Assembly: GCA_021738405.1 (NCBI GenBank)
Contig: JAIPCC010000001.1
Coordinates: forward strand, 1 to 64,000
Direction of reading: 5' to 3'
Length of the DNA: 64,000 nucleotides
Source: Crocinitomicaceae bacterium
Lineage (GTDB): Bacteria; Bacteroidota; Bacteroidia; Flavobacteriales_D; Crocinitomicaceae
In this document: one piece after another, positions 41,852 through 60,010 of the stretch
Layout: every line of letters starts with the position of its first letter
How positions within the stretch are numbered: position 1 is the first letter of the stretch
Notes under the pieces: generated by a model
What the model was told of the DNA's origin: nothing
Databases searched by the model: none
What the model saw: only the letters and a program-made list of their open reading frames with translations
Translations under genes and position numbers: made by a program

Positions 41852-42322
41852 ATGTCGGCGCCTCGTGCCTATGACCTTACACAAATGCTTCAGAAATCTG
41901 AGGCATTTTGTGCTTATCAGGAGCGCTGTAGTTTTGAAGTCATTGAAAAACTCAAGCGCATGGGTGCCGAGGATGGCGAAGTATTGCAAGTACTGAACTC
42001 CCTGATCGACAACAAATTTCTTGACGATGTCCGTTTTGCCCATGCCTACGCGGTCGGTAAGCTGCGCATCAAACATTGGGGCGTCAATAAAATCAAACAA
42101 GGATTGCAACTCAAGCGCTTGGATCGCGACTTGATTTCACAAGCAGTCTCAGACTTATATGAACAAGAAGATTACTTTGGTATACTTAAAGAAGTAGCCG
42201 AAAGAAAATGGCGAGAACTCCATAAAGAAAAAGACCCCTGGATGCGCAAGCAAAAGCTGTTTCGCTTCTTGGCATCCAGGGGTTTTAATTACGACGAATT
42301 TTCAGATCTGAAATTCGCTTAA
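41852..42322 (+). CDS. recX: Regulatory protein RecX
   Basis: 156 residues made of three-helix repeats, as in RecX, which binds RecA filaments and limits their activity. The N-terminal AYDLTQMLQKSEAFCAYQERC and the segment NKFLDDVRFAHAYAVGKLRIKHWGVNKIKQGL are typical. It starts on the base after the rng stop. Here RecX is uncoupled from recA and linked to rng. Confidence 0.9.
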   Translation: MSAPRAYDLTQMLQKSEAFCAYQERCSFEVIEKLKRMGAEDGEVLQVLNSLIDNKFLDDVRFAHAYAVGKLRIKHWGVNKIKQGLQLKRLDRDLISQAVSDLYEQEDYFGILKEVAERKWRELHKEKDPWMRKQKLFRFLASRGFNYDEFSDLKFA

Positions 42323-49275: not shown

Positions 49276-50646
49276 ATGCACGACATTCACCAAGACCCTA
49301 TTTGCGCTTTAGCTACAGCCAACGGCATGGGTGCCATCGCCGTTATTCGCGTCAGTGGCGCTGGTGTAAAGGCCTTGGTTTCGAAAGGTTTTTCAAAAGA
49401 TTTGTCTGTTTTATCTAGCCACAGCGTGCATTTAGGCTGGATGCTCAGCGCCAGCGGCGAGCGCCTAGATGAAGTGCTCGTCACGCTTTTCGACCACGGC
49501 AAAAGTTTTACTGGCGAAGAAAGCGTTGAGCTGGCCTGCCATGGCTCGCCGTATATTCAGCAATTGTTGTTGCAGCGTTTGGTCGAGCTCGGCTGCCGCT
49601 TTGCCGAGCCTGGCGAATTCACGAAGCGGGCATTTTTAAATGGCCGCCTAGACCTTTCGCAGGCCGAAGCCGTGGCAGACCTCATTGCCGCGCAATCCAA
49701 ACAAGCCCATCAAGTTGCCCTGCAACAATTGCGCGGCCGTTTTTCTTCCGAACTCCAACAACTCCGCGAGCAACTCATCAACTTTGCTGCCCTCATCGAA
49801 CTCGAACTCGATTTTGCAGAAGAAGACGTCGAGTTTGCCGACCGTAGTTCCCTCAAGCAACTCGTAGCTTCCGTTTTGCAAATGGTGCGCCGTTTGGCAG
49901 CTTCATTTGAACTCGGCAACGCCATCAAACAAGGCGTACCCGTTGCCATCGTTGGCGCCCCGAACACCGGCAAAAGCACCCTACTCAATCAACTGCTCGG
50001 CGAAGAACGCGCCATCGTTTCGGATATCGCCGGCACCACCCGCGACGTCATCGAAGAAGTCCTCAACATCGACGGCATTCAGTTTCGCCTCATCGACACC
50101 GCCGGCATTCGCGAAACCACCGAAACCATCGAAGCACTCGGCATCGAACGCTCTCAACAAAAAATCGAGCAGGCTAAAATTGTCCTTTGCTTGGCCGACT
50201 CCGGCGACCTCACCAACCTCCAAGAAACCCAAGAATGGGTGCAATCTTTGTTCATCATTCACCCGGACAAACACATATTGCTCATTCAAAACAAAGCCGA
50301 CCTAGCGAATTCTACCAATCTAAATCCGCAAGAAGCACTCCAAATCAGCGCCCTCACCGGCACCGGCATTACTGATCTCAAAGAAAAATTAGTCAAACTC
50401 GTGCTCGGCGACTTCAGCATCCAAGACGAAACCATCGTCTCCAACGCCCGCCACCACGCCGCCCTCCAACTCACCGCCGCCGCCCTAGACCTCGCCCAAG
50501 CAGGCCTCGACGGCCAAACCACCGCCGACTTCATCGCGATGGACATCCGCGAAGCCATGCGCCAACTCGGCCAAATTACTGGTCAGATTGATGTGGATAC
50601 GGATATCCTAGGAACCATCTTTTCTAAGTTCTGTATTGGGAAGTAA
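49276..50646 (+). CDS. mnmE: tRNA modification GTPase MnmE
   Basis: 456 residues. With MnmG it installs the (carboxymethyl)aminomethyl group on wobble uridine 34 of tRNAs. The N-terminal folate-binding domain (to about 120) is followed by helices and a G domain with P-loop GAPNTGKSTLLN, DTAG and NKAD. The C terminus FCIGK carries the essential Cys. The last 72 bases (50575-50646) switch from C-ending, GC-rich codons to A/T-ending codons, and the final 18 bases form the insertion site of the mobile element. The protein remains intact, so the element restores its target. Confidence 0.97.
   Translation: MHDIHQDPICALATANGMGAIAVIRVSGAGVKALVSKGFSKDLSVLSSHSVHLGWMLSASGERLDEVLVTLFDHGKSFTGEESVELACHGSPYIQQLLLQRLVELGCRFAEPGEFTKRAFLNGRLDLSQAEAVADLIAAQSKQAHQVALQQLRGRFSSELQQLREQLINFAALIELELDFAEEDVEFADRSSLKQLVASVLQMVRRLAASFELGNAIKQGVPVAIVGAPNTGKSTLLNQLLGEERAIVSDIAGTTRDVIEEVLNIDGIQFRLIDTAGIRETTETIEALGIERSQQKIEQAKIVLCLADSGDLTNLQETQEWVQSLFIIHPDKHILLIQNKADLANSTNLNPQEALQISALTGTGITDLKEKLVKLVLGDFSIQDETIVSNARHHAALQLTAAALDLAQAGLDGQTTADFIAMDIREAMRQLGQITGQIDVDTDILGTIFSKFCIGK
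50629..50646 (+). other. Predicted left attachment core (attL) in the mnmE stop region
   Basis: TTCTGTATTGGGAAGTAA codes for the last residues FCIGK and stop of MnmE. It matches, as far as I recall, the 18-bp core used by SGI1-family integrases in the same gene. It marks the junction between core genome and AT-rich element. The partner repeat should lie beyond 64000. Confidence 0.55.
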
Positions 50647-50690
50647 TGCCCGAAAACCATCAATAAACATCGATAACAATAGCTAAATGA

Positions 50691-50711
50691 AACCCTTGCC
50701 AGTCAAGGGTT
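50691..50711 (+). terminator. Intrinsic terminator after mnmE
   Basis: AACCCTTG (50691-50698) and CAAGGGTT (50704-50711) form a perfect 8-bp stem with a 5-base loop, followed by a T-rich run (TTCTCGTTTTT). It isolates mnmE transcription from the element. Confidence 0.8.
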
Positions 50712-50768
50712 TTCTCGTTTTTAAGCAAACCTGTCATTTTTCGTCTTTTGGGGCGTTTTGCACCCCTT

Positions 50769-50830
50769 TTGTTGCTCATCTGTTGTTCAGATTTCATGAG
50801 TAACAAGTCAGCAACAAATCTTGAACAACA
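50769..50830. repeat. Nested inverted repeats left of the recombinase operon
   Basis: TTGTTGCTCAT (50769-50779) is nearly the inverse of ATGAGTAACAA (50796-50806), with one mismatch. TGTTGTTCAGATTT (50781-50794) is inverted at 50816-50830 with one inserted base. TTGTTGCT also pairs perfectly with AGCAACAA at 50810-50817. Alternative cruciforms of this kind fit a recombination or replication control site. Confidence 0.5.
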
Positions 50831-50841
50831 CAAAAAAAATT

Positions 50842-50891
50842 GCTACACACTGCACCATGTAGCTACACGCTGCTACACGGTGCTACATAAA
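50842..50891 (+). repeat. Five tandem 10-bp iterons (consensus GCTACACNNT)
   Basis: Units GCTACACACT, GCACCATGTA, GCTACACGCT, GCTACACGGT and GCTACATAAA lie head to tail with an exact 10-base period, so each begins on the same DNA face. They end 6 bases before the ATG at 50898. They fit arm-type sites of a recombinase or an operator for the HTH protein. Confidence 0.6.
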
Positions 50892-50897
50892 GGCGAA

Positions 50898-51263
50898 ATG
50901 ACAATGACTGCTAGTAAATACCCATATTCGAAAATTTGTGTTTTCTGCCAAGAAGCATTTTTGGCAAGGAAAAGCACCACTTTGTACTGCTCTCACAAGT
51001 GTGGCTCTAGAGCCTATAAAGAGAACAAAAGACAGGAAAAAATACTCCAAAGTAATGCGACGATAAAGAGAGATTTAACAGCGCCTGTAATCATGCTTCA
51101 AGCAAGGGAAGTTTTAAGTATTGAAGAAGTGAGTTTGTTGCTTGGAATCTCTCGATGGACGGTTATGCGCATGTACAAAACCAATAAAATTAGAACAATT
51201 ACCATTGGCACGAGGCGATTAATCCTGCGTGAAGAATTAAATAAATTATTAAAAACCAAATAA
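50898..51263 (+). CDS. Zinc-ribbon plus HTH_17 DNA-binding protein
   Basis: 121 residues from ATG 50898 (50904 is possible; longer upstream starts would translate the iterons). Cys14, Cys17, Cys31 and Cys35 (ICVFC ... YCSHKC) form a likely zinc ribbon. Residues about 75-118 form an excisionase-type winged HTH (LSIEEVSLLLGISRWTVMRMY followed by TITIGTRRLILREEL). It lies 2 bases before the recombinase start, so it is probably a recombination directionality factor or operon repressor acting on the iterons just upstream (inference). Confidence 0.75.
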   Translation: MTMTASKYPYSKICVFCQEAFLARKSTTLYCSHKCGSRAYKENKRQEKILQSNATIKRDLTAPVIMLQAREVLSIEEVSLLLGISRWTVMRMYKTNKIRTITIGTRRLILREELNKLLKTK

Positions 51264-51265
51264 AT

Positions 51266-52408
51266 ATGAGAGTAACACTTAGAATGCGTCAGCTAAAGAC
51301 AGGTCGGATCAGCCTTTACCTCGATCACTACCCTCCAGTTATCCACCCAGAAAGTGGCAAAATAACCAGGTGGGAATACCTTGATATGTATCTCTACAAC
51401 CCACCCAGGGATGAAATGGAGAAACGCCATAACAAGGATATGGAAACCCTTGCTCGTTCGATAGCTGCTAATCGGCAGTTGGATAGATTGGCAGGAAAAT
51501 TCGGCATCAAACGTAGTTCCCAATTTGATGACTTCTTACCATTCTTTCAAAAGCAAGTAGATAAATGGATAGACAGTCCGAGTACGCATGGTGGATGGGT
51601 CGCTTCCTACAAAACCTTTCTTCAATTTTGTAATGAGCAATGTAATTTCGGAGATCTCACTCCACAATTCATTAATGAATACAAAGATTTTCTACAGAAA
51701 AAAGCCACTCGAATCAATTCGCCAAAAATGCGCATCTCACAAAACTCTTGTTACACCTATTACAACAAGCTCCGAGCAGCAGTGCGTGAAGCCATGGTAT
51801 TCGGGCATATCATCAGTAACCCTTTTGATGCAGTGAAAGGTATCACACAACCAGAAACCTATCGAGAGTTTTTAACTAAAGAAGAATTGATTAAACTTTA
51901 CAATACCGAATCGGAATCAGCATTACTCAAACGTACCTGTTTGTTTTCCGCACTCACTGGTTTACGATTAGGAGATGTTGTAAAACTACGAAAAGATCAA
52001 ATTCAACATTCTGAAAACCTCGGTTATTTTATTCGCTTCACACAAAGCAAAACCAAAGGCATGGAAACCTTACCCATATCGGATGAAGCATTGAGTTTTC
52101 TTGGAGAATTAGAAGCAAGTAGTGAGAAGATTTTTGGTGATTATAATTTTCAGCGAGACTATGCGCATTTAAATAGATGGTTGCAACGTGCAGGCATTCG
52201 TAAGAAAATTACTTTTCATAATTTCCGACACACTTTTGCTACGTTACAACTAGCGGAAGGAACCGATATCTATACCGTTTCAAAATTGCTTGGACACAAA
52301 CACATTCATACCACACAGATCTATGGTAAAGTGATGGATACAACGAAAACAAAAGCGATGAAAAGTATTCAATTGGGTATCAAAAATGACAAAAATGTCC
52401 AAGATTAA
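51266..52408 (+). CDS. Tyrosine recombinase / phage-type integrase
   Basis: 380 residues: an N-terminal arm-binding part, a SAM-like core-binding domain (about 85-185) and a catalytic domain with Arg234 (TGLRLGDVV), the His318-x-x-Arg321 pair (HNFRHTFAT), His344 (LLGHKHIHTT) and the nucleophile Tyr353 (QIYGKV). All active residues are present, so it should be functional and is the enzyme expected to insert the element at mnmE. The sequence is of the Bacteroidota conjugative/mobilisable element type. It follows the zinc/HTH gene by 2 bases. Confidence 0.93.
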   Translation: MRVTLRMRQLKTGRISLYLDHYPPVIHPESGKITRWEYLDMYLYNPPRDEMEKRHNKDMETLARSIAANRQLDRLAGKFGIKRSSQFDDFLPFFQKQVDKWIDSPSTHGGWVASYKTFLQFCNEQCNFGDLTPQFINEYKDFLQKKATRINSPKMRISQNSCYTYYNKLRAAVREAMVFGHIISNPFDAVKGITQPETYREFLTKEELIKLYNTESESALLKRTCLFSALTGLRLGDVVKLRKDQIQHSENLGYFIRFTQSKTKGMETLPISDEALSFLGELEASSEKIFGDYNFQRDYAHLNRWLQRAGIRKKITFHNFRHTFATLQLAEGTDIYTVSKLLGHKHIHTTQIYGKVMDTTKTKAMKSIQLGIKNDKNVQD

Positions 52409-52650
52409 CAAAGAATGTCAGTGACAAATTGGCTGAATATCAGCAGGATACGGAGATGATTTTTGTTTTCTTGAAATTGCGCAATAAGAAATTTATCTAC
52501 GCAAAAGTAGACTAGTTTGGAACAGTATGGAACAGCATGACACTAAAATATTTTGTATTACGAACCCTCCAAAAATCGATAACTAAAAAAAGGAAACCAA
52601 AAATTCTGGCACGGTTCTTTTTTTGATGCTAGGTGAGTAAATGTTTCATT
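52409..52650. other. Intergenic region with GGAACAG direct repeats
   Basis: This 242-base gap after the recombinase contains two copies of GGAACAG at 52519-52525 and 52529-52535 (10-base period) and AT-rich sequence. No ORF is supported. It includes the left arm of the inverted repeat described next. A transfer or replication origin is possible but not shown. Confidence 0.35.
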
Positions 52651-52675
52651 ATGAAAGAAAGTATTACTCACCTAG
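52629..52675. promoter_or_regulatory. Perfect 12-bp inverted repeat spanning the start of the excisionase-like gene
   Basis: CTAGGTGAGTAA (52629-52640) and TTACTCACCTAG (52664-52675) are exact inverse copies with a 23-base spacer that contains the ATG at 52651. As DNA it would be a palindromic operator; as RNA it would put the start codon in the loop of a 12-bp stem. Either form allows auto-control. Confidence 0.65.
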
Positions 52676-53001
52676 AAGCATTCATCACAGAGTTGGTGAA
52701 TGAAGCTGTTCAGACTGCCTTAGTGCAGCATCAAGAATCTGCCTCAACAGCATTGGCAGAAAATAAGCAAAATGCAGAAGTGCTCAATGCCGATCAGGCT
52801 GCGGAGTTCCTACATATTGCCAAACAAACCTTGTACTCCTTAACAAGTAGAAGAAAAATTCCTTTCTATAAGAATGGAAAGAAAATTCTATTTAAAAAAG
52901 GGGAATTACAAGAATGGTTAAATTCAGGCAAACACGAACAAGAAAATCAAATTCATCAACAAGCTTTGCGCTATGTGCAGGATAAACCTTTAAAACGTTG
53001 A
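52651..53001 (+). CDS. Excisionase-like HTH_17 protein
   Basis: 116 residues from ATG 52651 (GTG at 52633 would put the start in the left repeat arm). Residues 1-40 are helical and Gln/Glu-rich; residues 44-92 are a MerR/excisionase-type winged HTH (EVLNADQAAEFLHIAKQTLY ... IPFYKNGKKILFKKGELQEWL). In Bacteroidota mobile elements this protein usually sits upstream of a DUF3987 or replication gene, as here (2-base gap). The role is likely DNA binding at an element end or origin. Confidence 0.8.
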   Translation: MKESITHLEAFITELVNEAVQTALVQHQESASTALAENKQNAEVLNADQAAEFLHIAKQTLYSLTSRRKIPFYKNGKKILFKKGELQEWLNSGKHEQENQIHQQALRYVQDKPLKR

Positions 53002-53003
53002 TC

Positions 53004-54392
53004 ATGTACAATTCGAAAAACCAAACACCACAAGAGGAAGATTTATTTTTATTACCTCAATACCAGGATGAATTAAGAGCAACGCTTCATCAAGGTATTT
53101 TCAAATGTTTACCCGAGCCAATAAAAAGTTTGTTCGATGATATGAGCAATGTGTACGAACGAGATATATTATTGTTGGGTACTATCACTGTATTATCAGG
53201 CTGTATGCCTAATGTAATTGGCTTTTATGACCGCAAATGGGTTTCGCCAAATCTCTACACATTTATCGAAGCTCCAGCAGGCTCAGGAAAAGGCGTGTTG
53301 AGTTGGACAAGATTGATTGGTATGGAAATTCATAAAATGTTGTTGGAAGAAACACGCATCTCTAAACAACATTTTGAAGAATTAAAAAAAGAAAAGATTA
53401 AGCAAAAAGATGCTGACATCGCTTCTTTACAAGAACCACTTTATAAACTTCTTTTTATTCCAGCTAATAACAGTGCTAGTTCTGTGGTACAAACCCTCAG
53501 TGAGAACGATGGCGCAGGAATTCTATTCTCCACTGAAGCCGATACCTTAGCCAATTCATTGGCACAAGACTGGGGAAATTTTAGCGATGTGCTTCGCGCT
53601 GCATTTCACCATGAACCTGTGGAAATGCAACGCAGACAAAATCGCGAACACTTTTCGGTGGAGCACCCACGCTTATCTGTTTTACTCACCGGGACACGTG
53701 GTCAAGTATTTCGATTAATCCCCGATACCGAGAATGGGTTGTTCAGCAGATTCATGTTTTATTCCTTTCCAGCTGTCCCAAGTTTTAGAAATGTGTTTGA
53801 TCATCGTGGGACAGATCCGGGACAAGCATTTAGAAAAGTGGGACAATTGGTACAAGAAATGTATCAATTTTTAAAAGCACAACCTGAGCCAATTCAACTC
53901 TATTTACAGCCAGAACTTAAAGATGATTTTCTTAAGTTTTTTAGGCAAGTAACTATAGTTGCACATAAAGGTTCTGGCGTTCCGATATTAGCTACTATTC
54001 ATCGCTTAGGACTCATCAGTTTTAGAATTGCGATGGTCTTAAGCTTGATTCGTTATTACAACAATCCTAATCGAAAGGAAACTCAGAAAATAAAAATCCA
54101 TGCCGATGATTTAAATATTTCTCATGAAATAAGTATTACCCTTCTTTATCATTCCAATTTATTAATCGCAGATATGAAAAATGGAAGTAAGAATATACAA
54201 GTACAAATCCGACAACAACGATTCTACAACGAACTGCCGGAAGAGTTTAATTGGATGAAAGCCGTTGATATTGGAACTAAATGCAATATGTCTCCTTCTT
54301 CCGTTAGACGCTATTTATTGGGAGGACAATTTGAGCGAACCGCTAAAGGGCTTTATCGCAAAGTAGTCAAAGTGGAACCCGGTGAACATTGA
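53004..54392 (+). CDS. DUF3987-like P-loop protein of mobile elements
   Basis: 462 residues from ATG 53004. A Walker A-like APAGSGKG lies at residues 90-97, and later segments (LLFIPANNSASSVVQTLSEND, LFSTEADTLANSLAQDWGNF, LSVLLTGTRGQVFRLIPD) match the DUF3987 family found in Bacteroidota integrative elements, where it looks like a primase-helicase or RepA-type ATPase. The C-terminal 60 residues resemble a winged helix (WMKAVDIGTKCNMSPSSVRRYL). It probably supports element replication; this is inferred from the family. Confidence 0.75.
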   Translation: MYNSKNQTPQEEDLFLLPQYQDELRATLHQGIFKCLPEPIKSLFDDMSNVYERDILLLGTITVLSGCMPNVIGFYDRKWVSPNLYTFIEAPAGSGKGVLSWTRLIGMEIHKMLLEETRISKQHFEELKKEKIKQKDADIASLQEPLYKLLFIPANNSASSVVQTLSENDGAGILFSTEADTLANSLAQDWGNFSDVLRAAFHHEPVEMQRRQNREHFSVEHPRLSVLLTGTRGQVFRLIPDTENGLFSRFMFYSFPAVPSFRNVFDHRGTDPGQAFRKVGQLVQEMYQFLKAQPEPIQLYLQPELKDDFLKFFRQVTIVAHKGSGVPILATIHRLGLISFRIAMVLSLIRYYNNPNRKETQKIKIHADDLNISHEISITLLYHSNLLIADMKNGSKNIQVQIRQQRFYNELPEEFNWMKAVDIGTKCNMSPSSVRRYLLGGQFERTAKGLYRKVVKVEPGEH

Positions 54393-54426
54393 ACATATGA
54401 ATAAATGAACATACGAAATATCAATT

Positions 54427-55182
54427 ATGGAAGACCAAGCATTAATTAAAAGAGCTCTTGAACTACAAGAAATGGGCAAAAGCATCCGACAGATAGCAGC
54501 AGCTCTCAATACAAGCAAAAGTACCGTGTTTCGGTGGCTTAATGGACAATCAGGCAATGGAGGCAACACCTTGCCCATTGACCTTATTGCCATAACCAGC
54601 AACACGCCACAATCACTTAAACAAAAAAATAAAAACGAAATGGAAAACAACAACGACCTCAACAGACTAGAGCGTGAAATCGCTTTAAAGAAATTGCAAT
54701 TAGAACATGACCTCGAGTTGCGCAAACTGGCTCAACAAGACAAAGAATTAGAGCTACGCAAACGTGAATTAGAGCTGAAGCATTTAGAGAAAGATGCCAT
54801 AGCCAGGCAACAACTGATTGAAGAACGAAAAATCAATCATGGATTGAAAGTTTGGATTGAAAAAGAGCGGACTTTACTTTCTCAATTTGATTACGAAGAA
54901 ATTGAAATGGATCTAGCGACTTTCAAACGTCATTTCAAAGCGTTGTATAAACTCTGGCAACAGGCAGAAGAACACATGGCGGTGTATGCCATTGATGCCG
55001 AATCGCACCTAGGGCATTATTACTTTAAATCCCTCATTGAAATGTTCAACGAAACATTAGAAAACGCAATTGAAGACCAGGACGAAGATGAAGAAGATAT
55101 AGACATCATCATTTCCTACGAATACGATGATGATTCCATAGAATTCCTAGAAAATCTAGAAAATTCTGATTTTTTCAGTTGA
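54427..55182 (+). CDS. HTH plus coiled-coil protein of the mobile element
   Basis: 251 residues: an N-terminal resolvase-type HTH (about 5-42, ALELQEMGKSIRQIAAALNTSKSTVFRWL), a long charged coiled coil (about 75-150, rich in Leu/Glu/Lys/Gln), a helical region and a very acidic tail (about 218-250). This architecture is common downstream of DUF3987 genes in Bacteroidota elements; the function is unknown. It is the last gene before the defence operon and is followed by a gap with repeats. Confidence 0.65.
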   Translation: MEDQALIKRALELQEMGKSIRQIAAALNTSKSTVFRWLNGQSGNGGNTLPIDLIAITSNTPQSLKQKNKNEMENNNDLNRLEREIALKKLQLEHDLELRKLAQQDKELELRKRELELKHLEKDAIARQQLIEERKINHGLKVWIEKERTLLSQFDYEEIEMDLATFKRHFKALYKLWQQAEEHMAVYAIDAESHLGHYYFKSLIEMFNETLENAIEDQDEDEEDIDIIISYEYDDDSIEFLENLENSDFFS

Positions 55183-55187
55183 TTTTA

Positions 55188-55230
55188 CCACGGAATTACC
55201 GTGGAATTGCGGTGATTCTTGTGGAATTGC
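55188..55230. repeat. Inverted and direct repeats after the element backbone genes
   Basis: CCACGG (55188-55193) and CCGTGG (55199-55204) are inverted around AATTA. GTGGAATTGC occurs at 55201-55210 and again at 55221-55230, a 20-base period. This may be a terminator or a protein-binding array at the boundary between element backbone and cargo. Confidence 0.4.
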
Positions 55231-55302
55231 TATATTAAGGCTTAAAATTACCATGTTTCTACTCATTCGTCCGAAAACTTCTAAATTTTATCTATGATTT
55301 AA

Positions 55303-55388
55303 TTTTGTAGTCACATTACTTAATATATTATTTCTTATTTTATTGATTATTTGATTTATTTATTTATTTTTGTAGTGTAATTACTTAA
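55303..55388 (+). repeat. Two 21-bp direct repeats flanking the RM operon promoter
   Basis: Both copies have TTTTGTAGT, three variable bases, then ATTACTTAA, at 55303-55323 and 55368-55388, 65 bases apart. Each overlaps a TANNTTTG -7 box (TAATTTTG at 55300-55307; TATTTTTG at 55365-55372). This suits repressor control of two alternate start sites. Confidence 0.55.
55343..55372 (+). promoter_or_regulatory. Promoter of the defence operon
   Basis: TTG at 55343-55345, exactly 19 bases, then TATTTTTG at 55365-55372: a full match to the Bacteroidota TTG-N19-TANNTTTG consensus. The predicted start point lies about 15-20 bases before the TTG start codon of the half-HsdS gene. It is the clearest promoter between 54427 and 64000. 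Confidence 0.75.
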
Positions 55389-55397
55389 AAATAAAAA

Positions 55398-55955
55398 TTG
55401 AAATCAAAAATTCAAGATATTGCAACGCTTCAAACCGGATTATTTGCCAAGCCTTTGGCGAAGGGCGAAGTTGTTTATTTGCAATCAAAGCACTTCGATG
55501 ATCAGGGAAACCTTTTAACTACGCTCCATCCCGATTTGTTAAAGGAGAATATTTCAGAAAAACATTTCTTGAGAGCGGGTGATATTCTCTTTGCAGCAAA
55601 GGGAACTAAAAACTTTGCTGCAGTATATGAAGAACACAATCCTCCTGCAGTTGCTTCTACATCTTTTTTTGTTATTCGATTATTTGATTCCAAAATAAAC
55701 CCTGAATACTTAACTTGGTTTCTAAACAACTCTAATACACAAGCAATTCTTAAATCCCAAGCAATCGGAACTTCAATCCCTTCAATATCAAAACAAGTTT
55801 TAGAGAATTTCGAAATTTCGATTCCAATTATTGAAATGCAAAATGCTATTCTACAAATCACGAAACTCCGTAATAAGGAAAAATATTTGAAACAGAAAAT
55901 TGAAACAATAAGAGAAAAACAAATTCAACAACAAATACTCAACGCAATAAAATAA
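55398..55955 (+). CDS. Half-size type I restriction specificity protein (single TRD)
   Basis: 185 residues starting with TTG, 26 bases after the -7 element. It reads as one target-recognition domain (HFLRAGDILFAAKGTKNFAAVY, NPEYLTWFLNN, AIGTSIPSISKQVLENFEI) followed by one conserved helix (about 145-185). This is half of a normal HsdS, which has two TRDs. Single-TRD proteins can pair as dimers to make a full specificity unit. The frame is clean with no C-terminal remnant. It lies 5 bases before hsdM. The specificity is unknown. Confidence 0.75.
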   Translation: MKSKIQDIATLQTGLFAKPLAKGEVVYLQSKHFDDQGNLLTTLHPDLLKENISEKHFLRAGDILFAAKGTKNFAAVYEEHNPPAVASTSFFVIRLFDSKINPEYLTWFLNNSNTQAILKSQAIGTSIPSISKQVLENFEISIPIIEMQNAILQITKLRNKEKYLKQKIETIREKQIQQQILNAIK

Positions 55956-55960
55956 ATATT

Positions 55961-57520
55961 ATGGCTAAAATAACTCAAAAAGATATCAATGATGCAGTTT
56001 GGAAAGCATGCGACACATTTCGTGGAAGCATTGACCCAAGTGTATATAAAGACTATGTACTCACTATGTTATTTTTAAAATACTTAAGTGATGTGCATGA
56101 TGATAAAATGGAAGAGTACCTCAAAAAATATAATGGAGATACTGAACGTGCAAAACGTGCAATACAACATGAACGTTTTGTTGTTCCAGAAAATAGTCAT
56201 TTTAAGTTTTTATACGAACATAGAAATGAAGCCAATATTGGTGAGCTTATTAATATCGCTTTAACAGATTTGGAAGAAGCCAACCGAGATAAACTTTACA
56301 GTGAAGATGGTGCTGGAATATTCCAGAACATCGATTTTAATAATAGTAAGTTGGGTGAACCGAAGGATAAAAACCAACGATTGAAAACTTTACTTATTGA
56401 TTTCAATTCTGAAAAATTGGATTTGCGTCCTTCGCATGTTGGCGGTGCGGATATCATTGGTGGTGCTTACGAATTTTTGATTGCAAACTTTGCTAGTGAT
56501 GCCGGTAAAAAAGCGGGAGAATTCTACACGCCAAATGAAGTGTCTACCTTATTAGCAAAGTTGACACAAAGCAAACCGGGTTCACGTATTTGTGATCCTA
56601 CCTGTGGTTCAGGTTCATTACTTATCAAAGCCGGAACAGAAGTAGGCTCAGATAATTTTTCTTTATACGGCCAAGAAGCCAATGGAAGTACCTGGGCATT
56701 GGCGGTGATGAATATGTTCCTGCATGGATTTGACAATGCCACTATCCGTTGGGGTGACACCATTCGCAATCCGAAATTAAAGGAAGGTGATGTTTTGATG
56801 AAGTTTGATACAGTGGTTGCTAATCCTCCTTTCTCATTGGACAAATGGGGAAAGGTTGAAGATAAAGATGGCGATAAGACTACGGTGAGTTATGATCCGG
56901 AGAGTGATAAGTACAATCGTTTTTGGAGAGGTGTGCCTCCAAAGAGCAAAGGTGACTGGGCTTTTATCAGTCACATGATTGAAACATTAAACGAGCATGG
57001 TAAAGCTGGAGTGGTAGTGCCACACGGAGTATTGTTCCGTGGAAGCAGCGAAGGAAAAATTAGGCAAAAGACAATTGAGGAAAATTTATTGGAAGCTGTA
57101 ATTGGCTTGCCTGCGAATTTGTTCTTTGGAACAGGTATTCCAGCAGCTATCATGGTATTCAACAAAGCTAAAGCAAGTGAGCATGTATTGTTTATAGATG
57201 CCAGTCAGCATTTTGAAAGTGCGAAGAATCAAAATAAACTACGTGAAAGTGATATTGAACATATTGTATCGACTTACAGAGCGTTTGCAAAAGGTAAGAT
57301 GAAACCGGGAATAGTTGAGGAGAAATATAGCTATGTAGCAACATTCAAAGAGGTTGAGGAAAATGATTTCAATCTAAATATTCCTCGCTATGTGGACACT
57401 TTTGAAGAAGAAGCAGAAGTAGATATTGCTGCAGTACAAAAGGAGATTGACAAACTAGAGGGTGATTTGGAAAATGTTCAGGCTGAAATTAATCAATATC
57501 TCACTCAATTAGCTAAATAA
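55961..57520 (+). CDS. hsdM: Type I restriction-modification methyltransferase subunit HsdM
   Basis: 519 residues. It transfers a methyl group to adenine N6 at the site chosen by HsdS. The HsdM N-terminal helical domain (about 10-150) is followed by the methyltransferase core with SAM motif DPTCGSG (212-218) and catalytic NPPF (288-291). The C-terminal helical tail (about 480-519) contacts HsdS. Both motifs are intact. The stop overlaps the hsdS start in TAATG. Confidence 0.95.
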   Translation: MAKITQKDINDAVWKACDTFRGSIDPSVYKDYVLTMLFLKYLSDVHDDKMEEYLKKYNGDTERAKRAIQHERFVVPENSHFKFLYEHRNEANIGELINIALTDLEEANRDKLYSEDGAGIFQNIDFNNSKLGEPKDKNQRLKTLLIDFNSEKLDLRPSHVGGADIIGGAYEFLIANFASDAGKKAGEFYTPNEVSTLLAKLTQSKPGSRICDPTCGSGSLLIKAGTEVGSDNFSLYGQEANGSTWALAVMNMFLHGFDNATIRWGDTIRNPKLKEGDVLMKFDTVVANPPFSLDKWGKVEDKDGDKTTVSYDPESDKYNRFWRGVPPKSKGDWAFISHMIETLNEHGKAGVVVPHGVLFRGSSEGKIRQKTIEENLLEAVIGLPANLFFGTGIPAAIMVFNKAKASEHVLFIDASQHFESAKNQNKLRESDIEHIVSTYRAFAKGKMKPGIVEEKYSYVATFKEVEENDFNLNIPRYVDTFEEEAEVDIAAVQKEIDKLEGDLENVQAEINQYLTQLAK

Positions 57521-58770
57521 TGAGTAAAGAAAGGAAAAATGTAATTACTGCTAAAATTCCAGAATTTAGTTATATACCCAATGACTGGAAAATTAGCGCA
57601 TTAAATAAGGTTGCATGGTTCCAGGAAGGTCCTGGGCTTAGACACTGGCAGTTTACTACAAGCGGAATGAAAGTTATTAATGTAACCAACCTAGTGGGCG
57701 GGATCATAAATCTAGAAAAGACTGAACGCTACATAGCATTTGAGGAATTTGAGAAAACATATAAACACTTTGCAATTGATGCTGGCGACATTCTAATGGC
57801 AAGCTCAGGTGCTACATATTGTAAAGCATCTATAATTGGCGAAAAAGATTTGCCAGTAATGATGAATACTAGTGTAATCAGATTCAAACCTATCAAGGAT
57901 GTTGATTACAATTATCTTTGGGCATATTTAAGTTCTTTTTTGTTAAAAAGACAAATTGATTTCCTAATTACAGGAGGAGCCCAACCAAACTTTGGTCCAG
58001 CTCATTTAAATCAAGCAGTAATTCCACTTCCACCAATACAGGAGCAAAAAGCTATTGCCCAAGTGCTTAGCAAGGCCGATGCCGCTATTCAAACTACTGA
58101 AAAACTTATTACCCAAAAAGAACTGCGTAAAAAATGGTTGATGCAGCAGTTGTTGACTGGAAAGAAAAGATTGAAAGGTTTTGCTGGAGAATTGAAGGAA
58201 ATTCATATCCGTGATATTGCGAAAGAGGTTAGCATTAGAAATAAAAGTGACAAACAATTAACTGTTTTATCATGCACCAAGTATGATGGACTAGTGCCAT
58301 CCCTTGAATACTTTGGTAGAAAGATTTTTGCTGATGATGTGAGCACTTACAAGATTGTTCCGAAAAATCATTTTGCTTATGCAACAAATCACATTGAAGA
58401 AGGTAGTATAGGCTATCAGGGACTTTTAGATGAGGCGCTAATAAGTCCAATGTATACTGTTTTTAAAACCAATGGAACAGTAAACGATATATTTTTATTC
58501 AGATTGCTAAAGTCGCATCCTTTAGTTTACCAATATCAAAATCGAATGGAAGGATCAATTGACCGGAGAGGTGGATTGCGATGGGATGCATTTTCAATTA
58601 TTAAGATTAAACTTCCATCTATTGAAGAACAAACTGCTATCGCCCATGTATTTCAAGTGGCAGATAAAGAAATTAGTTTACTAAAAGCAAAAGCTGAGAA
58701 ATTGAGGGAGCAGAAAAAGGGGTTGATGCAGCAGTTGTTGACGGGGAGGGTGAGGTTAAAAATTAAATGA
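57520..58770 (+). CDS. hsdS: Type I restriction-modification specificity subunit HsdS
   Basis: 416 residues with two target-recognition domains: TRD1 about 20-175 and TRD2 about 225-370. Each is followed by a conserved coiled helix ([24 protein letters not shown] and [23 protein letters not shown]). Both helices end with the same LMQQLLTG motif (residues about 208 and 405), the usual HsdS internal duplication. It determines the bipartite target sequence, which cannot be read here. It is coupled to hsdM and to the SEC-C gene (1-base gap). Confidence 0.95.
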
Positions 58771-58771
58771 A

Positions 58772-60010
58772 ATGAAAACAGGAAGAAACGACCCTTGTCC
58801 TTGTGGAAGTGGGAAAAAACATAAAAAGTGTTGCTGGTTAACACCTGAAATAGTATTGCCAGTGGAAAAGCCTCAGCTTATATACAACAAACAACTTAAC
58901 CGCTACGAATCTAAGAATGACCATCACTATGCGAATATTAATAATCAAGACTTCAATAACACAGATTCGAGATCTTATCTAGGAAAAATAAAGTGCCGTT
59001 TGGTACATGAAGATGGAAACTCAATAATCATTCCCGATTACATATTATTGAAAAATGGTTGGATTCAGCCCTTACATTTTACAGCTCCTTTATTATTTAA
59101 GTTAGACGAAACCTCAATTGAATGCAACTTCTTTATTGATATACAAAACGGGATAACAATTAAAATACACTTTTTAAATCATCAATTGCTTCAAACTTAC
59201 GCTGATAAAAGCCAGCTATTTGATTGTGAAATATTGGGGCCTGCTGATATTGAAGAGTATGCTTGCGGTGAATTTAAAACCATTGGTAATAAAATTTACT
59301 TCAAACTATATCATCACACTAGTGAAGGAGGTTACAATGGCATAACTGGTAGTAAAAACTTGAGGTCTTCGAAATGGAACTATAGAGGAAGTAAGGAATG
59401 TATAAATTTTCATTTTGCTTACTTCACTCATATCCCAAAAGTTAAATTTCCAAATGATTTGATTACCGTTGCAATGTCGGCTGATGGCAATATTGACTAT
59501 ATGATTGATTCTTTTGTGTTACCCAAAGTGATGCCATCAGATTACAGAAAAAGACACAGAAATTCAATTTACACTGCCAAAGTATATCGTTCAACAACAT
59601 CTGATAGGAATTATACAATTGAGTTTTTAATCCCGATTGAATGTCTTGATGTGAAACACATCTATTTACATCATCAAGTGAATTCAGTATTCTATGAAAT
59701 GTGTTTCCCATATATCCACAGAATAAAGCTAAAGGCCAACAGTATTTTAACATTTACTGATGATTACTGTATCATAAATGATGATGCGATTGTAAATTCT
59801 GAATACTCAATTATTGGTGATGCAAGAAACAAGGAAGGATTGGCTGCTCCATTTGAAGAAGATGAAACAAAATTTATTTACAAAATTGAGGATTGTGGAA
59901 AAGAATCAATTCTTGATTTCTGGTTTAGTCATGCAAATAAGGACTTGTTCACTGGGAAAATGGTAGAGACATTAAAATTAAAAGAAGTTGAAGATAATCC
60001 AACAAAATAG
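58772..60010 (+). CDS. SEC-C zinc-motif protein with large uncharacterised domain
   Basis: 412 residues. The N-terminal 21 residues are a canonical SEC-C zinc motif: Cys9, Cys11, Cys20, Cys21 within [15 protein letters not shown]. The remaining 390 residues are beta-rich, with many Asn, His and Tyr, and match nothing I recognise. SEC-C motifs bind zinc and often mediate protein or nucleic-acid contacts. The ATG lies one base after the hsdS stop, so it is translated with the RM system. A defence role is possible from context only. Confidence 0.7.

Follow-up and report, generated by a model that had tools for sequence, protein, structure and literature searches.

Sequence comparison points to a paired structure, possibly an mRNA hairpin, around the start codon of an excisionase-like gene in Bacteroidota islands beside mnmE

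Introduction

An exact inverted repeat that encloses a start codon raises the question of whether it acts as RNA, as DNA, or not at all. Such a repeat is present in the window, i.e., the whole 64,000-nucleotide stretch of Crocinitomicaceae DNA analysed here, at the HTH_17 gene at 52651..53001, which we refer to as HTH2. A sequence-only reading of the locus had offered two functions for the repeat, either an operator through which the gene regulates itself or an RNA switch that hides the start. The data discussed below support a selected paired structure around the HTH2 start, for which an RNA hairpin appears to be the best fit; the second proposal is thus supported in this general form, while an operator for the encoded protein appears unlikely. 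If the stem gates translation, it would provide a compact, testable case of how starts are controlled where Shine-Dalgarno sequences are not used, and an entry point to how a recurring family of mnmE-side islands keeps the HTH-DUF3987 unit quiet.

HTH2 and its island

HTH2 (+ strand) encodes a 116-aa protein that matches PF12728 (E 7.8e-14) and TIGR01764 (42.2 bits, cut-off 28.8), which bears out its earlier description as excisionase-like. The protein thus carries the excise/HTH_17 domain of the Excisionase class (recombination directionality factors) and may act in excision. Identification as the MADS defence protein MAD1 was rejected (44.4 bits, curated cut-off 80). The structure model (mean pLDDT 72.5, pTM 0.29) gave no match to the PDB by Foldseek at E 0.001 or better.

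The island adjoins the 3′ end of a reading frame at 49276..50646 (+), which we take from its sequence to be mnmE. Then follow the HTH_17 gene HTH1 (50748..51263, +; profile matches, start uncertain), a tyrosine integrase gene (51266..52408, +; PF00589, PF13102, and PF17293), and HTH2 as the first of an HTH-DUF3987 pair. The DUF3987 gene (52998..54392, +; PF13148, E 7e-53) is an open reading frame from TTG 52998, with an ATG at 53004, two bases past the HTH2 stop codon. A protein gene with HTH_23/HTH_7 profile matches (54427..55182, +) belongs to the island core of many relatives, and further downstream the island has a type I specificity-subunit match, beside a gene that presumably encodes its partner methylase.

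Relatives share the gene order HTH1-integrase-HTH2-DUF3987. It was examined in 23 loci, which are the 30 relatives minus L049-L055, whose leaders mostly duplicate others. Directly before the island, mnmE was found in 15 of these loci; seven of the other eight have little or no upstream DNA, and L018 has 4 kb with no mnmE match. The integrase is 84-90% identical in most loci (74% in L022 and 64% in L067). The identity of mnmE, 42-90%, is below that of the integrase in most loci, which would fit a mobile island. Between 50400-50800 and the downstream rest of the window, no shared exact repeat of at least 13 bases was found. As a separate observation, the island at 49276-60010 of the window and those of loci L002-L022 form a family beside mnmE with HTH1-integrase-HTH2-DUF3987 as the shared core, and the genes downstream of this core differ, judged from the few sufficiently long loci.

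Relatives of the locus

Of the 24 loci found by scanning genome contigs, three are only distant HTH matches; further relatives were taken from overlapping genome sets at the levels of phylum (395), family (240), order (399), and class (395). Leaders were readable in 28 loci, one of them the window copy, and 18 of these leaders are distinct; L067 brings the number to 19. Alignment A3 comprises all 19 and alignment A2 the 18 that remain when L022 is left out. In the protein tree, the forks of which are weak, 14 rows group together to the exclusion of L018, L020, and L056 with L067.

Searches of viral contigs gave no relative of HTH2, with either the single protein or an alignment as the query, and none of the DUF3987 protein. 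HTH2 has matches in six plasmid and eight phage records, all below 60% identity, and at two phage places the match covers at least 80% of HTH2; the DUF3987 protein matches five plasmid and four phage records, also below 60%. A search of phage DNA with the HTH2 leader gave no match. In the window and 52 loci, a covariance model matched 13 HTH2 starts, gave E 0.023 for the start in L022, and produced three weak reverse-strand matches, which also lie at HTH2 starts. The same model detected no second copy in the window and the 52 loci, other HTH_17 loci included.

An exact repeat with the start codon in its loop

The left arm (CTAGGTGAGTAA, 52629..52640, +) lies in the HTH2 leader and the right arm (TTACTCACCTAG, 52664..52675, +) corresponds to codons 5-9 of the gene. 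Sequence and repeat search thus agree with the sequence-only reading on the 12-bp arms, their 23-nt spacing, the ATG in the spacer, and the position of the right arm. The arms form an exact 12-base inverted repeat, and the stem would occupy positions -22 to -11 and +14 to +25 relative to the ATG at 52651. In the window fold and the leader comparison the loop is 52641..52663 (+). Allowing imperfect pairing, the repeat grows to 27-nt arms that are 78% complementary.

The low probability of such pairing by chance, also part of the earlier reading, is consistent with the counts. The 64-kb window has two perfect inverted repeats with arms of at least 12 bases and spacers of 3-40 nt, the HTH2 repeat and one at 42234-42283, and six dinucleotide shuffles of the window had 1, 0, 0, 0, 0, and 0. 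The longest perfect stem between the 30-nt leader and early coding sequence was also scored, in the window and 13 loci, at 174 reading frames that begin with ATG and encode 100 aa or more, a sample that includes HTH2 relatives and is therefore not independent; the 12 bp at HTH2 is the longest, and 149 of the 174 starts have 4-6 bp.

Other roles for this region were considered and rejected. An intrinsic terminator would need a run of T, whereas the sequence after the right arm is AAGCATTCATC. The left arm contains an in-frame GTG (52633) that could serve as another HTH2 start in the window, but its frame is not maintained in all relatives because the leader length differs by 1-2 nt. A Shine-Dalgarno role for AGGTGA was discarded since the sequence is not retained in all relatives.

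Predicted promoter and 5′ end of the message

In Flavobacterium psychrophilum, a TAnnTTTG box spans -12 to -5, as described in PMC9723704. The sequence TTTTTTTG (52618..52625, +) would correspond to this flavobacterial box and is the predicted -7 box of HTH2. In L002 and L022 it reads TATTTTTG, a perfect TAnnTTTG, positioned four bases farther from the ATG in L022, and none of the 18 A2 rows departs from its TTTG. Transcription would start at 52630 and give a leader of 21 nt, in which case the message would begin with the left arm; with the A missing from the window box, this start stays a prediction.

The leader alignment also reveals a conserved motif, TGGCACGG (52607..52614, +), possibly a regulator site in the promoter spacer. 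Its GGCAYGG is present in all 18 rows of A2 and its first T in 17, and it is not retained in L022. A sigma-54 promoter, suggested by TGGCACG, was rejected on comparison with the sigma-54 consensus, since the -12 GC is missing. Other short repeats were noted farther upstream of HTH2. Copies of TGCGCA are 20 bp apart in some relatives (e.g., L002, L003, L005, and L020), TTGRNAC repeats spaced by 10 or 20 bp lie around -144 to -114 in several, and in the window, at 52478-52545, TGCGCA occurs once and TGGAACA twice.

Conservation of the pairing

Of the 19 distinct leaders, 17 retain all six inner base pairs (in A2, 17 of its 18 rows), with one pair broken (A.C) in L015 and the stem absent from L022. 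The 15 closest distinct leaders, the window included, share the left-arm sequence GGTGAGTAAA without change. RNAalifold, without being supplied with the stem, predicts it on alignments A2, A3, and A4. For the nine-pair stem on A2, 96.3% of the 162 cells are paired, and seven cells in three pairs are changed on both sides. These are column pairs 35-68 (A-U to G-C in L020, L056, and L067), 37-66 (U-A to A-U in L056 and L067), and 32-71 (G-C to A-U in L020 and L067). Two core pairs have double changes that retain the pairing, in L020 and in L056 and L067, and these are the compensatory substitutions that the sequence-only reading had proposed to look for in related elements. One of the right-arm substitutions shared by L056 and L067 is nonsynonymous (T6 to S6), and the left arm changes to match. 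Because L018, L020, and L056 with L067 lie outside the 14-row group, the seven cells are counted as at least two paired events and not as seven.

None of 500 shuffles of A2 matched the share of paired cells, the number of double-changed cells, or the covariation score, in a test that ignores kinship, so that related rows may beat the shuffles without any structure. Two of the five measures are not above the shuffles (pairs with a double change, 116 of 500; further pair types, 326 of 500). Sliding the partner by 1-3 columns gave 36-64% paired cells and 0-2 double-changed cells. By a hand estimate for L056, two changes per six-base arm would align and match by chance in about 1 in 135 cases. The outer pairs stay G.U where the coding side went from C to T; these changes are synonymous and therefore carry little information on pairing. 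Moreover, a purine-rich leader facing pyrimidine-rich codons could favour pairing by itself. Taken at the sequence level, the paired substitutions appear to conserve the pairing, on a basis of three rows and two or three events, with loss in L022. According to the earlier reading, a lack of arm conservation in loci that conserve the protein would refute its proposal. This applies to L022, the most distant relative (44% protein identity), which has a short palindrome, TTTGCGCAAA, in the leader instead of the stem, and it does not apply to the closer relatives.

Folding of the start region

The RNA fold of 52600-52720 has -38.1 kcal/mol (z -3.99), a value reached by none of 200 shuffles. Folding models place the stem over the initiation region in the window and its close relatives. 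In the window fold the loop is further paired (TTTC/GAAA), a pairing absent from L003-type leaders. For nine close leaders, 0 to 30 of 1000 leader shuffles, with letters shuffled singly, reach the fold energy. When codons 2-12 are recoded synonymously, between 2 and 332 of 1000 variants fold equally well, the L003 type being worst (319 and 332). The fold energies of the diverged leaders L020, L056, and L067 are -5.4, -10.6, and -12.4 kcal/mol; leader shuffles attain these in 344, 305, and 101 of 1000 cases and synonymous recodings in 564, 277, and 32 of 1000, respectively. As shuffles often reach these energies, none of the three diverged leaders stands out as a fold when taken alone. A search of 50000-56000 against Rfam, with E values of up to 1 admitted, gave no family match, and the locus was not assigned to a described riboswitch or thermometer family.

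The folds also predict another stem, over codons 10-18. This one was rejected because none of its nine pairs is changed on both sides and two of them are disrupted in L056 and L067. Among 15 close relatives, codons 1-20 of HTH2 (52651-52710) have a synonymous identity of 0.908, compared with 0.63-0.74 in later blocks, and the highest value, 0.945, is that of codons 10-20, beyond the start stem.

A brake on translation and its alternatives

In Flavobacterium johnsoniae, as outlined in PMC6847099, Shine-Dalgarno sequences are lacking, start regions tend to be unpaired from -20 to +20, and structure there tunes initiation. Since Bacteroidota ribosomes do not rely on Shine-Dalgarno sequences and prefer the stretch from -20 to +20 to be free of structure, a stem at this position should slow 30S loading. 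The model that we favour, at about even confidence, is that the inverted repeat forms an mRNA stem-loop at the 5′ end of the HTH2-DUF3987 message that lowers translation initiation. The stem-loop would lie at, or within about a base of, the 5′ end, where the leader would pair with codons 5-9 and the start codon would sit in the 23-nt loop. With the stem at -22 to -11 and +14 to +25, the loop alone is left to the ribosome, and the stem is read as a translation brake on HTH2, the output of which would stay low until the stem is opened. As two bases separate the HTH2 stop codon from the DUF3987 ATG, the brake perhaps extends to DUF3987 through coupling, so that this gene may be restrained too. 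The transcription start, the translational repression, and the coupling are all elements that we infer. In a bolder version, which we regard as quite improbable, the stem would be an on/off RNA switch dedicated to mnmE-side Bacteroidota islands, in hosts without Shine-Dalgarno use, opened by an element- or helper-encoded factor and thereby gating the HTH-DUF3987 unit, and hence excision or replication.

The same arms might instead be a DNA operator, where a dimeric repressor on both arms, at and just after the transcription start, blocks transcription and the half-sites co-vary as they follow the repressor. A perfect palindrome at the predicted +1 and short repeats upstream suit this scenario, and the paired changes would equally fit a palindromic DNA site. 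However, the core half-sites occur as GAGTAA, GGGTAA, and GGGAAA, with changes at two of six positions, while the HTH2 core (AKQTLY..TS.RK.PFYKNGKKILF) is invariant across nine aligned proteins, L022 included, and the distance between the half-sites varies by up to 2 bp among relatives. The arms thus fit badly as a site for the encoded HTH protein, which makes HTH2 an unlikely binder, although another repressor is possible; GGCAYGG and the upstream TTGRNAC repeats would be better candidate DNA sites for HTH2 than the arms. We consider an operator unlikely overall.

Chance combined with shared descent, with the right arm kept as coding sequence, the left arm as a purine-rich leader, and the pairing functionless, seems less likely again. 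It would account for the weak folds of the diverged rows, the synonymous recodings that often fold equally well, and the missing stem in L022, in an alignment of mostly closely related sequences; it sits poorly with the rarity of perfect repeats in the window and its shuffles, with double changes in register, and with the low values of the slid controls. That a 5′-terminal stem shields the mRNA from decay, with no control of translation, we regard as very improbable. The predicted 5′ end is within a base of the stem, as this would require, but a stem that spans the start codon would be oddly placed for protection alone. The translation brake remains our preferred reading of the repeat.

Relation to known systems

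In IS10, a hairpin reportedly acts against read-through transcripts, and the transcript from the element's own promoter is said to lack the full hairpin; the HTH2 own-promoter transcript, by comparison, should include the whole of its own hairpin. IS10 resembles HTH2 in that the translation start of a mobility gene is a control point, and differs in its use of antisense RNA and Hfq, as described in PMC5006887. Leader structures that restrict translation of mobility genes are already known, e.g., in the account of the ISPpu9 transposase in PMC8450116, where a 5′-UTR structure limits translation. The likeness to HTH2, for which it is predicted, is that an mRNA leader structure restrains translation of a mobile-element gene. 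According to the same account (PMC8450116), ISPpu9 differs in having a long 5′-UTR, a ribosome-binding site within the structure, and two small RNAs. The predicted HTH2 leader is 21 nt and Shine-Dalgarno use is not expected. Among the matches listed for Bacteroidota islands, excisionases, or start-codon hairpins, no description of the HTH2 start hairpin was found.

With Excisionase/HTH_17 genes of mobile elements HTH2 shares the matches to HTH_17 and TIGR01764, and it differs in its position, which is downstream of the integrase and distal to mnmE. The genes of SGI1-type islands differ from those of the HTH2 island. These islands are located at the 3′ end of trmE/mnmE, as stated in PMC8409611, and thus have the same neighbour gene, but belong to a different phylum, and no att repeat was found in the window.

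Other repeats of the island

A larger inverted repeat lies between mnmE and the integrase (window 50768-50818; L022 980-1030; L003 4118-4168), with arms of 21-25 nt that are 77-92% complementary in the three loci measured. It reads TTTGTTGCGCATTTGTTGC.../...GCAACGAATGCGCAACAAA in L022, similar sequence is seen in the other relatives displayed, and it overlaps the start of the HTH1 reading frame. Possibly, it holds integrase or regulator sites. Adjoining it are direct repeats with a 10-bp period (TGCACCA/TGCTACAC type; window 50841-50888, L003 4191-4240), present in four copies in L003.
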